DNA of 64,000 bases from an uncultured Bacilli bacterium (GTDB lineage: Bacteria > Bacillota_I > Bacilli_A > RF39 > UBA660): NCBI GenBank assembly GCA_949425635.1, contig CASPWD010000002.1:124001-188000 (forward strand), given 5' to 3'. A program made the translations under genes and the position numbers. This document shows positions 22,618 through 63,793 of this stretch, one piece after another; position 1 is the stretch's first letter, and every line of letters starts with the position of its first letter. Below the pieces are notes generated by a model. The model made no database searches. It was not told the DNA's origin and was given only the letters and a program-made list of their open reading frames with translations.

Positions 22618-22646
22618 GTATCTCAACTTTAAGTTGAGATACTTTT
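22618..22646 (+). terminator. Terminator of the HD hydrolase gene
   Basis: 12-bp perfect arms (22618-22629 and 22631-22642) around one base, then TTTT. A plain palindrome of this length could also act as a protein site for the following sulfotransferase gene. Confidence 0.7.
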
Positions 22647-22710
22647 CAACTTAGAATCTATTGTAATGAAATCTAAAATATGTAATACTTATCCTAAGGA
22701 GGAAGAAAGA

Positions 22711-24699
22711 ATGAAAAAAAATAATAAAAACAAAAAAAACAACAAATATCTTATATTTGCACTTGTTATTATAGTAATTTTTATAGTACTAATTGGAGGA
22801 CTATTTTTCCTAAACAAAAAAAATACTAATAAAAATGAAGTGACAATTGCAAAGAGTATGACAGAAACTCAAAATGAAATCGAGAAAAATTTTAAAACGA
22901 AAGGGTATGACTTAGACAATCCAAACATCATTTTAAACCCTTATGGAAACTCTCCGTTAACAGCTTTAGTTTTATTTGAGACAGAGGAAGAAGTAAGTAT
23001 TAATGTAACGATCAAAGGTAAAGATAAATTAAGTACATTTTCTCATACTTTTGAAAAAACTAAAAATCACTACTTACCAATATATGGTCTTTATGCTGAC
23101 TATAAAAATGAAGTAGTAATTGAGTATGAATTAAATGGTCAAAAATTTAGTAAGACATTAGAGATTGAAACAGAGAAACTACCAGATAATATGATTTTAC
23201 CTACAGAAGTAAAAAGTGATAAATCTAAATTAACGAACGATTTATATTTCTTTACACCATCAAGTATCGGTTACACTTGTGCTTATGATGTTAATGGAGA
23301 TGTTCGCTGGTATTTATCTAATTATGCTATTTGGAAAATAGATAGATTAGAAAACGGACATTTATTATTAAGTACAGAAAGGTTAATAAATAGTCCTTAC
23401 TATATGACAGGATTATATGAAATTGATTTAATGGGTAAAATATATTCTGAATATAGTCTAGAAGGTGGATATCATCATGATTATTATGAAATGGAAAATG
23501 GTAATCTTTTAATTGCTAGTGATGATTTCGGTAACGAATCAGGTACTGTAGAAGATTATATAGTTGAACTAGATAGAAAAACAGGAAAAATTGTTAAAAG
23601 ATTTGATTTAAAAGATGTTTTAAACATGCAAGATGGTCAAAGCGAAAATTGGTCTGATTATGACTGGTTCCACAACAATGCCGTTTGGTACGACAAAGAC
23701 ACTAATTCAATAACATTATCAGGTCGTCATCAAGATGCTGTAATAAATATTGATTATGAAACAGGTAAATTAAACTGGATAATAGGTGACCCAACAAATT
23801 GGAGTGAAGAATATCAAAAATACTTCTTTAAACCAATAGGAGAAGACTTTGAATGGCAATGGAGTCAACATGCTGCTATGATTACTCCAGAAGGATATGT
23901 TTTTATCTTAGATAACGGAAATAACAAATCTAAAATTAAAGAAGAGTATGTTCCAGCAGAAAAAAGCTATACTCGTGGTGTTATGTATAAAATAGATACG
24001 GATGCTATGACTATTGAGACTGTTTGGGAATATGGTAAGTCTCGTGGAAGCGAATTCTACTCACCATATATTTCAGATGTTGATTATTTAAGCAAAAACC
24101 ATTATATTGTTCATTCAGGTGGTATTGTTTATGTAGATGGTAAAAACTCTAATCAACCAGCAGGATTTAGTACAGATACAACTCTAGTTTCTGATACAGT
24201 AGAGTTACTTAATAATAAAGTGATTTTTGAGATAATTTTACCAACTAACAATTATCGCGTTGAAAAAATGAGTCTATATACAGACAAAGAAAACTTCAGT
24301 ATAGGCGAATCAAATAGAGTAGGTAGCTTAGGTAAAACAGAAATAACAGAAAGTAAGTTTACTCCTATACTAAGTAGTAAAAAAATAGATGACGAGTATA
24401 ATTCTCATAATATTACTATAACTAAAGAAATTGATCGTCTAGTTGTAAAAGGACGTTTCAAAAGAGAGACAAAAGTAAATGTTGTTCTATACAAAGATTT
24501 AACTTCTAAGTATTTCGAATTTAAAGTAAGCAAAAAACCATATACAGCTTTATGTGTTGACATTTTTACAGAGGAAGAAACAGAGCAAGGCATTAATGTC
24601 ACAAAATACATTAATAGCGAAGATTTAACTGGCAAATATTCTATTTATCTTGAAATAGATGGAACTCTATATAACACAAATGAATTCGTGGTATTTTAA
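22711..24699 (+). CDS. Membrane-anchored arylsulfotransferase (ASST/AssT-like)
   Basis: 662 residues from ATG 22711 (AAGGAGG at 22696-22702; an earlier ATG at 22666 lies upstream of that RBS). Lys/Asn-rich N-terminus, one membrane helix (about 13-35), a beta domain (to about 165) and a beta-propeller. Candidate catalytic residues follow the AssT order: HH255-256, H321 (DWFHNNAVWY), R339-H340 (SGRHQDAVINID), H387 (WQWSQHAAM). The H321-R339 spacing of 18 equals H356-R374 of the E. coli enzyme. This PAPS-independent family moves sulfate between phenolic donors and acceptors outside the cytoplasm. Only two Cys, 190 and 615, are present. A CPHC protein gene follows after 1 bp. Confidence 0.86.
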   Translation: MKKNNKNKKNNKYLIFALVIIVIFIVLIGGLFFLNKKNTNKNEVTIAKSMTETQNEIEKNFKTKGYDLDNPNIILNPYGNSPLTALVLFETEEEVSINVTIKGKDKLSTFSHTFEKTKNHYLPIYGLYADYKNEVVIEYELNGQKFSKTLEIETEKLPDNMILPTEVKSDKSKLTNDLYFFTPSSIGYTCAYDVNGDVRWYLSNYAIWKIDRLENGHLLLSTERLINSPYYMTGLYEIDLMGKIYSEYSLEGGYHHDYYEMENGNLLIASDDFGNESGTVEDYIVELDRKTGKIVKRFDLKDVLNMQDGQSENWSDYDWFHNNAVWYDKDTNSITLSGRHQDAVINIDYETGKLNWIIGDPTNWSEEYQKYFFKPIGEDFEWQWSQHAAMITPEGYVFILDNGNNKSKIKEEYVPAEKSYTRGVMYKIDTDAMTIETVWEYGKSRGSEFYSPYISDVDYLSKNHYIVHSGGIVYVDGKNSNQPAGFSTDTTLVSDTVELLNNKVIFEIILPTNNYRVEKMSLYTDKENFSIGESNRVGSLGKTEITESKFTPILSSKKIDDEYNSHNITITKEIDRLVVKGRFKRETKVNVVLYKDLTSKYFEFKVSKKPYTALCVDIFTEEETEQGINVTKYINSEDLTGKYSIYLEIDGTLYNTNEFVVF

Positions 24700-24700
24700 A

Positions 24701-25210
24701 ATGAAAAATAAAAGTATAATAATCTCTTTAATTGTTATCTTATGCATTGTATCAGTAATCGGATATTTCTCTTATAATAATTATAAAGAAAAGAAGGAAC
24801 TTGCAAGTATTGAAGTAATAATTAAAAATCCTTCTTTAGAAGAAGTTAAAAAAACAAATGATTTAATAAACAATCGCAAAATAAGTATTTATCTTTTCTA
24901 TGGTGATGGATGTCCTCATTGTGAAGACTTATTAAATCACTTAGAAAGCATCAAAGATGAATATGGCAAATATTTTACAGTCTACGCTTTTGAAGTATGG
25001 AAAAACAACGAAAATGGCGAGCTCATGGATAAATTTGCTGAGGAATTTGATGGTGAAGTTGGTAGTCGCTCGGTTCCGTATTACATAATCGGAGATGAAG
25101 TAATGAGTGGTTATATTCCAAGTATGAGTACCAAAGTCGAAAAAAAGATTCTTGATAAATACAATGAACGCAAAAAAATCGATAACTATAACCATCTATT
25201 TGAAAAATAA
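24701..25210 (+). CDS. Membrane-anchored thioredoxin-fold protein with DsbA-like CPHC site
   Basis: 169 residues from ATG 24701, 1 bp after the ASST stop and with no separate RBS, so translation is probably coupled. One membrane helix (about 6-23), a helical linker, and a thioredoxin fold: ISIYLFYGDGCPHCEDL (Cys71, Cys74) and SVPYYIIG with the expected cis-Pro. CPHC is the oxidising active site of DsbA. In uropathogenic E. coli assT is followed by dsbL-dsbI, so a redox partner for the sulfotransferase is plausible (inference). No DsbB or VKOR is seen nearby. Own terminator downstream. Confidence 0.85.
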   Translation: MKNKSIIISLIVILCIVSVIGYFSYNNYKEKKELASIEVIIKNPSLEEVKKTNDLINNRKISIYLFYGDGCPHCEDLLNHLESIKDEYGKYFTVYAFEVWKNNENGELMDKFAEEFDGEVGSRSVPYYIIGDEVMSGYIPSMSTKVEKKILDKYNERKKIDNYNHLFEK

Positions 25211-25215
25211 AAATC

Positions 25216-25239
25216 AAAAGACATCAATTGATGTCTTTT
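25216..25239 (+). terminator. Terminator of the ASST-thioredoxin operon
   Basis: Perfect 12-bp palindrome arms AAAAGACATCAA and TTGATGTCTTTT (25216-25239), 5 bp after the stop. Confidence 0.8.
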
Positions 25240-25315
25240 ATTCATAATATTTTGTTGTTTTAGAACAATTTCTATATTAAAATAGATTAAAAGATACATT
25301 ATTAGAGGTGAAAGA

Positions 25316-25599: not shown

Positions 25600-26307
25600 A
25601 TGAAACAAGAAGAAATCGGTAAATTAATAAAAAAAATTAGAAAAGAAAATAATTTAAGTCAACAAAAATTTGCTTCACAATACGGTGTAACATACCAAGC
25701 TGTAAGCAAATGGGAAACTGGTAAAAATATTCCAGACATATCAATTTTAAAGAAAATATGTGATGATTATAAAATCGATTTAAATGACCTTTTAGATAAC
25801 AAAGCAACCACTAAGAAAAAAGATAAGAAAATATTTTTTATCGTTTTAATAGCAATTTTAGTTATTGTTATTACATCAAGCATTATTATAATAATAAATA
25901 ATAAAAATAAAAATGACTTCGAATTCAAAACTCTTTCATCTACATGCGACAGTTTCAATCTATATGGTAGTATAGCATACAACAAAAAGAAATCATCAAT
26001 TTATATATCAAATGTTACTTATTGTGGTGGGAACGACACCAAAGTATATAAAGAAATAACCTGCACTTTATACGAAAATGACGAAAATGCCAAAATAGAA
26101 ATAAGTAAATGTAATTACACTGATAATAAGGACAAAACTCTAGAAGAATTTATGCAAGATATAAATTTCAAAATCGATAATTATGAACCAATATGTAGAG
26201 ATTTTAAAGAAGATACTCTTCACTTAGAAATCGATGCAATTGATGAAAATAACGAAACAACAACGTATAAAGTTCCTTTAAAATTAGCGGATAATTGTTT
26301 AAACTAA
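25600..26307 (+). CDS. Membrane-tethered XRE-family regulator with six-Cys exported domain
   Basis: 235 residues from ATG 25600 (AAAAGAGG before it). XRE HTH at about 8-62: IGKLIKKIRKENNLSQQKFASQYGVTYQAVSKWETGKNIPDI in pattern. A basic linker leads to one membrane helix (about 76-98), then an exported domain of about 135 residues holding six Cys (STC, TYC, ITC, SKC, PIC, DNC). The topology suggests a one-component sensor whose outer domain is disulfide-bonded and whose HTH acts at the membrane. Known XRE-TM proteins in Firmicutes exist, but the ligand is unknown. Confidence 0.82.
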   Translation: MKQEEIGKLIKKIRKENNLSQQKFASQYGVTYQAVSKWETGKNIPDISILKKICDDYKIDLNDLLDNKATTKKKDKKIFFIVLIAILVIVITSSIIIIINNKNKNDFEFKTLSSTCDSFNLYGSIAYNKKKSSIYISNVTYCGGNDTKVYKEITCTLYENDENAKIEISKCNYTDNKDKTLEEFMQDINFKIDNYEPICRDFKEDTLHLEIDAIDENNETTTYKVPLKLADNCLN

Positions 26308-63499: not shown

Positions 63500-63793
63500 A
63501 TGTTAAAAAAAATAAATAATAAAGAAGAATTTTCAAAAACAATCAGCTCAGGTACATGGCTAGTTGATTTCTCAGCCAAATGGTGTGGTCCATGTCGTAT
63601 GCTAGAACCAGTAATCGAAAGTGTTTCTAAAAACAACGACGTAATTCAAATAGATATTGATGAAGCAATAGACATTGCTGAAGAATTTGGTATTATGAGC
63701 GTTCCAACACTTCTAGTTTTTAAAGATGGAGTTCTAAAAAACAAAGAAATAGGGTATATGCCAGAAGAAGAAATACTAAATCTTTTCAAGTAA
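63500..63793 (+). CDS. trxA: Thioredoxin
   Basis: 97 residues. WLVDFSAKWCGPCRMLEPVIESV has the canonical WCGPC site (Cys30-Cys33 region), with IDIDEAIDIAEEFGIMSVPTLLVFKDG (cis-Pro) and a C-terminal helix. A soluble cytoplasmic thiol reductase, shorter than the usual 105 residues at the N-terminus. RBS AAGAAGGAATG. Cotranscribed with the CvpA gene (25 bp). Confidence 0.94.
   Translation: MLKKINNKEEFSKTISSGTWLVDFSAKWCGPCRMLEPVIESVSKNNDVIQIDIDEAIDIAEEFGIMSVPTLLVFKDGVLKNKEIGYMPEEEILNLFK

Follow-up and report, generated by a model that had tools for sequence, protein, structure and literature searches.

Does the pairing of an arylsulfotransferase with a CPHC thioredoxin in a gut member of the Bacilli represent a Gram-positive form of the AssT-DsbL system? 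In the gut, enzymes of the ASST type transfer sulfate among drugs, hormones and phenols, and the AssT-DsbL-DsbI system of uropathogenic Escherichia coli is encoded by the astA-dsbL-dsbI operon. The CPHC motif is that of DsbA oxidases. An initial annotation of the 64,000-nucleotide stretch of DNA analysed here (the window) saw an echo of AssT-DsbL in two of its adjacent genes (Table 1). Our analysis leads to a different account, comprising an outward-facing arylsulfotransferase (ASST), a thioredoxin (Trx) that is not of the DsbL type and has been recruited repeatedly, and a regulator that would sense thiols or sulfur compounds and control a small exported set. Taken as a whole, we give this account an even chance of being right.

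Table 1. Features of the locus, in window coordinates
Feature	Position	Strand	Basis
Inverted repeat GTATCTCAACTT/AAGTTGAGATAC, lying between ASST and the HD-domain gene upstream of it	22618..22642		Spotted by eye; missed by the scan
ASST (PAPS-independent arylsulfotransferase), 662 aa	22711..24699	+	Pfam PF05935 and PF17425; 3elq sequence match 1.1e-36, fold match Z 35.8; 62-row alignment
Membrane-tethered thioredoxin-fold protein (Trx), 169 aa; CPHC 71-74, V-P (cis-Pro position) 125-126	24701..25210	+	Pfam PF13098 1.3e-7; AlphaFold pLDDT 91.9; best fold matches thioredoxins, Z 11-12
Inverted repeat with T-rich flanks, terminator-like, closing the ASST-Trx unit	25215..25240	minus, as placed by the scan	Called by the scan
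XRE (HTH_3) one-component regulator, 235 aa; a single TM helix plus an ectodomain	25600..26307	+	Pfam HTH_3 1.3e-14; helix and ectodomain read from sequence
Cys-bearing regulator ectodomain, about 130 residues	25906..26304	+	No convincing Pfam or PDB match

An AssT-type sulfotransferase with its active site intact

The mechanical open reading frame for ASST begins at 22666 and would encode 677 aa. The ATG at 22711 is immediately preceded by AAGGAGG, and for this reason the 662-aa form, with the initially reported cysteine numbers 190 and 615, is the correct one. A Pfam search identifies the Arylsulfotrans (E 1.7e-99) and Arylsulfotran_N (4.8e-23) families, the propeller domain scoring 333.8 bits against a curated cut-off of 24.2. 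The fold matches that of E. coli AssT (3elq) over 437 residues at an rmsd of 2.9 Å. Alignment to 3elq places the active site at H256, H321, N323, R339 and H387, which are counterparts of AssT H252, H356, N358, R374 and H436, residues with described catalytic roles (PMC13426309). All five are invariant among the 62 aligned rows. By family, fold and intact active site, the product is therefore a bona fide AssT-type sulfotransferase, as the initial annotation had proposed. The residues of its H...H-N18-R...H pattern also hold, although the spacing does not: 17 residues separate H321 from R339, one fewer than stated and identical to the spacing of H356 and R374 in AssT. The enzyme should move a sulfuryl group from an aryl sulfate to a phenol, and would do so by a ping-pong reaction through sulfo-His387.

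The protein is laid out as an N-terminal transmembrane anchor, an Ig-like N domain, a six-bladed propeller and an extra C-terminal beta domain, and its predicted topology is that of an exported, outward-facing and membrane-anchored enzyme. It contains exactly two cysteines, C190 and C615, in agreement with the earlier reading. These differ greatly in conservation across relatives: C615 is kept in 80 of 80 full-length sequences, whereas 20 of 81 sequences have V, M, S, A or T in place of C190. C615 ends a YTALC loop (residues 611-615), in which Y611, T612, A613 and C615 are invariant across the subfamily. None of the eight more distant ASSTs amenable to alignment has the motif. Confidence in the predicted structure is lowest at this loop, with pLDDT under 50 at residues 611-618.

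A thioredoxin recruited repeatedly, probably not as a DsbL counterpart

The neighbouring gene is as first described, beginning a single base pair after the ASST stop codon and encoding a membrane-tethered CPHC protein with a thioredoxin fold. Its one N-terminal helix (residues 2-35) forms the membrane anchor. In the predicted model, only a short helix (103-115) separates the strand at 92-98 from the cis-Pro strand at 127, leaving no DsbA insert, and the DSBA profile (PF01323) finds no match in the protein. Judged by its modelled fold, CXXC site and N-terminal anchor, Trx is a plain thioredoxin of the exported type.

How constant is the pairing? The 80 closest relatives of this ASST all come from metagenome-assembled genomes of gut Bacilli, a sample skewed to close relatives that bears out the gut habitat initially proposed for the host. 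Among the 77 related loci with enough flanking sequence, 30 carry a Trx-family gene downstream of ASST. One further locus (L032), with a broken ASST frame, also has the Trx gene; it would raise the paired loci to 31 and is counted here among the 47 unpaired. The placement is tight, with 28 of the 30 genes lying between -50 and +14 bp of the ASST end; contrary to this near-universal position directly downstream, one genome (G130) has Trx upstream. In a single ASST-adjacent Trx (L059, 3866-4369) the CPHC site reads SEQS, both catalytic cysteines being gone.

Across 291 genomes of the host's bacterial family, PF05935 genes occur in 94. Among the matches listed, 69 high-scoring genes (65 genomes) belong to the ASST subfamily and 40 do not; a Trx gene lies within 2.5 kb of at least 12 of the 69 and of none of the 40. 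On a tree of the Trx family, the members found beside ASST fall into more than one clade, with seven changes of which at least three are forced, which indicates that this family joined ASST more than once. Presence or absence of Trx changes state 11 times on the ASST tree. The linkage is therefore partial yet recurrent, beyond chance: the pairing recurs in relatives and has more than one origin, but extends to only part of the subfamily.

If Trx were the dedicated oxidase of a C190-C615 disulfide, as the initial annotation implied, the pairing should look like that of AssT. The gene order, the 1-bp gap, the CPHC site, the membrane tether and the recurrent linkage all fit that proposal. We take the AssT disulfide to be C418-C424, just ahead of the catalytic H436, numbers that are consistent with the 3elq alignment. 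The segment that holds it is deleted in the window's ASST, with about 16 residues missing before H387. In AssT itself, activity requires a disulfide, formed by DsbL or DsbA (PMC7810732). Further, C190 is absent from 14 of the 30 Trx-paired ASSTs and retained in 41 of the 47 unpaired ones, L032 included. This association is not phylogenetically independent; consequently, it does not prove the opposite of the disulfide idea and shows simply that ASST and Trx can be paired in the absence of C190. A Fisher test that took no account of phylogeny linked Trx presence to the state of C190 (p 0.0014, in the direction opposite to the disulfide idea) but was set aside, as the tree offers no independent pairs.

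The host's wider redox equipment also argues against a dedicated oxidase. DsbA (PF01323) was found in 0 of 98 genomes of the bacterial family, and DsbB and VKOR each in 0 of 145, while the same searches recovered all three in control genomes; in the family genomes searched, the canonical oxidative machinery is absent. The window's own genome bin (G000) likewise has no DsbB/DsbI-type or VKOR membrane oxidase. All these genomes are metagenome bins; at 2.39 Mb, with 5.6% contamination and listed relatives of 0.4-1.8 Mb, the window's own bin may mix genomes, so that an absence from it alone says little and the argument rests on the counts across the family. Its exported proteins show no bias towards even numbers of cysteines, with 35 even against 40 odd in a set of 97 predicted proteins chosen by a crude hydrophobicity rule. 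Some clostridial DsbA proteins function without DsbB and are recycled by small disulfides (PMC12453122), and the missing DsbB and VKOR consequently leave room for an oxidase role. Nevertheless, with the AssT loop deleted, C190 variable and neither a DsbA insert nor a match to that family, the supposed Gram-positive echo of AssT-DsbL is mostly unsupported, and we consider it improbable that Trx is an oxidase dedicated to an ASST disulfide.

Trx might instead act on ASST as a reductase, keeping the unpaired C615 of the YTALC loop reduced or resolving its mixed disulfides. The constancy of C615, the absence of YTALC from the distant ASSTs and the lack of a Trx neighbour at the 40 other ASSTs, among the matches listed, all speak for this proposal. 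However, C615 is equally invariant in 46 full-length ASSTs that have no Trx, and the paired Trx of L059 has lost both of its catalytic cysteines; we think such a role unlikely.

The Trx family is widespread in its own right, being present in 239 of the 291 family genomes, mostly away from ASST, with a second member in the window's own genome. Its members are solitary, follow a rhodanese-like lipoprotein or are fused to a transmembrane domain. Such a distribution, together with the 11 switches in Trx presence along the ASST tree, is what would be expected if a common exported thioredoxin had been inserted behind ASST in some lineages and were co-transcribed with it without any shared function. 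This explanation has a low probability in our judgement, given several independent recruitments to the same spot, within about 50 bp downstream, and a shared regulator ahead of both ASST and Trx genes.

The fused forms (L151 1306-2478, L162, L178-L192) join the same Trx domain to a multi-TM domain marked by the motifs FNPCAMW and ELACS. This domain has two membrane cysteines positioned as in CcdA, and a profile comparison with CcdA (HHalign) gives a weak probability of 42%. It may be a CcdA-like electron carrier that escapes the Pfam DsbD_TM profile, which matches only 15 of 145 family genomes. In the window's genome, CcdA is also encoded, next to a TlpA-like thioredoxin. A cytosolic-type thioredoxin with a CGPC site is encoded near the end of the window (63500-63793).

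A membrane regulator with a cysteine-bearing ectodomain

The initial annotation missed a third gene, which encodes a membrane-bound XRE regulator. Its ectodomain carries cysteines at positions 116, 142, 155, 171, 199 and 233, and homologues have three to six. Among 71 aligned regulators, C155 is kept in 71, C233 in 68 and C199 in 62, and C116 and C142 are gained or lost together. Neither Pfam nor PDB searches returned a convincing match to the ectodomain, and the literature searched described no membrane XRE regulators with cysteine-bearing ectodomains.

In 68 of 80 relatives (for example L009, 5099-5812), ASST is preceded on its own strand by a homologue of this regulator, almost always as the immediate neighbour, with roughly 20-106 bases between the two genes. 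In the window, unlike most relatives, the regulator is downstream of the ASST-Trx pair. Thirteen rows have no regulator, including the window's own ASST in a short locus (L001). Eight other regulator-less loci had at least 5 kb of upstream sequence; the link between regulator and ASST is thus not universal. Family-wide, the regulator was found in 119 of 291 genomes, almost always as a single copy, and within 2.5 kb of 32 of the 69 subfamily ASSTs versus none of the 40 others. Its linkage to ASST is stronger than that of Trx, making the regulator the more constant neighbour. We read ASST and Trx as members of the regulator's module.

What else does the regulator accompany? At nine of 16 regulator loci that lack ASST, the next gene encodes an exported CPWC Trx; one locus has a Trx-like protein that lacks CxxC in this place and another a rhodanese-like lipoprotein, and the rest differ. 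These neighbours suggest that exported thiol and sulfur chemistry is the regulator's shared theme. CPWC Trx-like proteins stand directly behind it in L239, L241, L243, L244, L248, L250 and L251; two of them show weak, sub-threshold similarity to PedC/BrcD and one to DsbH. Further loci show the gene order regulator, rhodanese-like protein, CPHC Trx. The rhodanese-like protein, an exported lipoprotein with a CGGGGYAG loop (L125 2358-3029, L138 341-1039, L153 2754-3422), is followed by a Trx gene with CPHC or CPRC, the regulator standing ahead in several loci. The name was given by eye from the CGGGGYAG loop, and searches of Pfam, NCBIfam and PDB lend it no support.

On our preferred account, the regulator most likely responds to a signal outside the cytoplasm, be it a thiol, the redox state or a sulfur compound. 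It would control ASST in this lineage, alongside the exported thioredoxins and the rhodanese-like lipoprotein. Trx, as one of an exported thioredoxin family of gut Bacilli recruited repeatedly behind ASST in regulator-bearing loci, would keep the thiols of the exported set working rather than act, in the manner of DsbL, as an oxidase reserved for a disulfide in ASST. The regulator's cysteines would be likelier clients than ASST, and electrons might come from a CcdA-like carrier. Several observations pull against this account. DsbA oxidases share the CPHC motif of Trx, and the invariant C615 could itself be a Trx client. The likeness of the fused domain to CcdA is weak, the regulator lies downstream of the pair in the window, and eight loci lack it despite ample upstream sequence. 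Partnerless DsbA proteins are, moreover, known from clostridia (PMC12453122).

We speculate that these genes might belong to an undescribed transmembrane redox regulon of gut Bacilli, a tentative idea whose chances we put well short of even. Cysteines of the regulator ectodomain would form a disulfide switch, set by exported thioredoxins, that controls exported sulfur-group chemistry through ASST, the rhodanese-like protein and the CPWC and CPHC thioredoxins. If so, aryl-sulfate metabolism would be coupled to the extracellular redox state. The ASST subfamily is common in uncultured gut Bacilli, with members in roughly 65 of the 291 genomes from a single bacterial family. The Cys-ectodomain regulator that heads Trx and rhodanese-like operons suggests how a redox or sulfur signal exposed at the wall might be sensed in the absence of DsbB and VKOR.

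Comparison with known systems

Like AssT-DsbL-DsbI, the window's system combines a PF05935 enzyme that has the same active site with a CPxC thioredoxin-fold protein encoded by the next gene. Unlike it, there is no DsbI-like partner, no DsbA insert and no C418-C424 loop. Further, this ASST differs from E. coli AssT in being membrane-anchored, in its extra C-terminal domain and in a Trx linkage found in only part of its relatives. The Firmicutes (Cluster II) PAPS-independent arylsulfotransferases (ASTs), such as DhAST of Desulfitobacterium hafniense, are likewise PF05935 proteins of Firmicutes, and active-site residues are reported to be conserved in both AST clusters (PMC13426309). For these Cluster II enzymes, the literature searched described no thioredoxin linkage.

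Among thiol-disulfide proteins, PedC/BrcD and DsbH have sub-threshold similarity to CPWC thioredoxins found behind the regulator elsewhere, which nevertheless fall far below the curated cut-offs and have other neighbours. Another parallel for Trx is the CcdA-Etrx system of Streptococcus pneumoniae, in which extracellular thioredoxins are attached to the membrane of a Gram-positive bacterium (PMC3914529). The window's Trx has a transmembrane anchor where Etrx has a lipid anchor, and no link to MsrAB was seen. It is, however, likewise exported and membrane-attached in a Gram-positive host, and CcdA is present in the window's genome.
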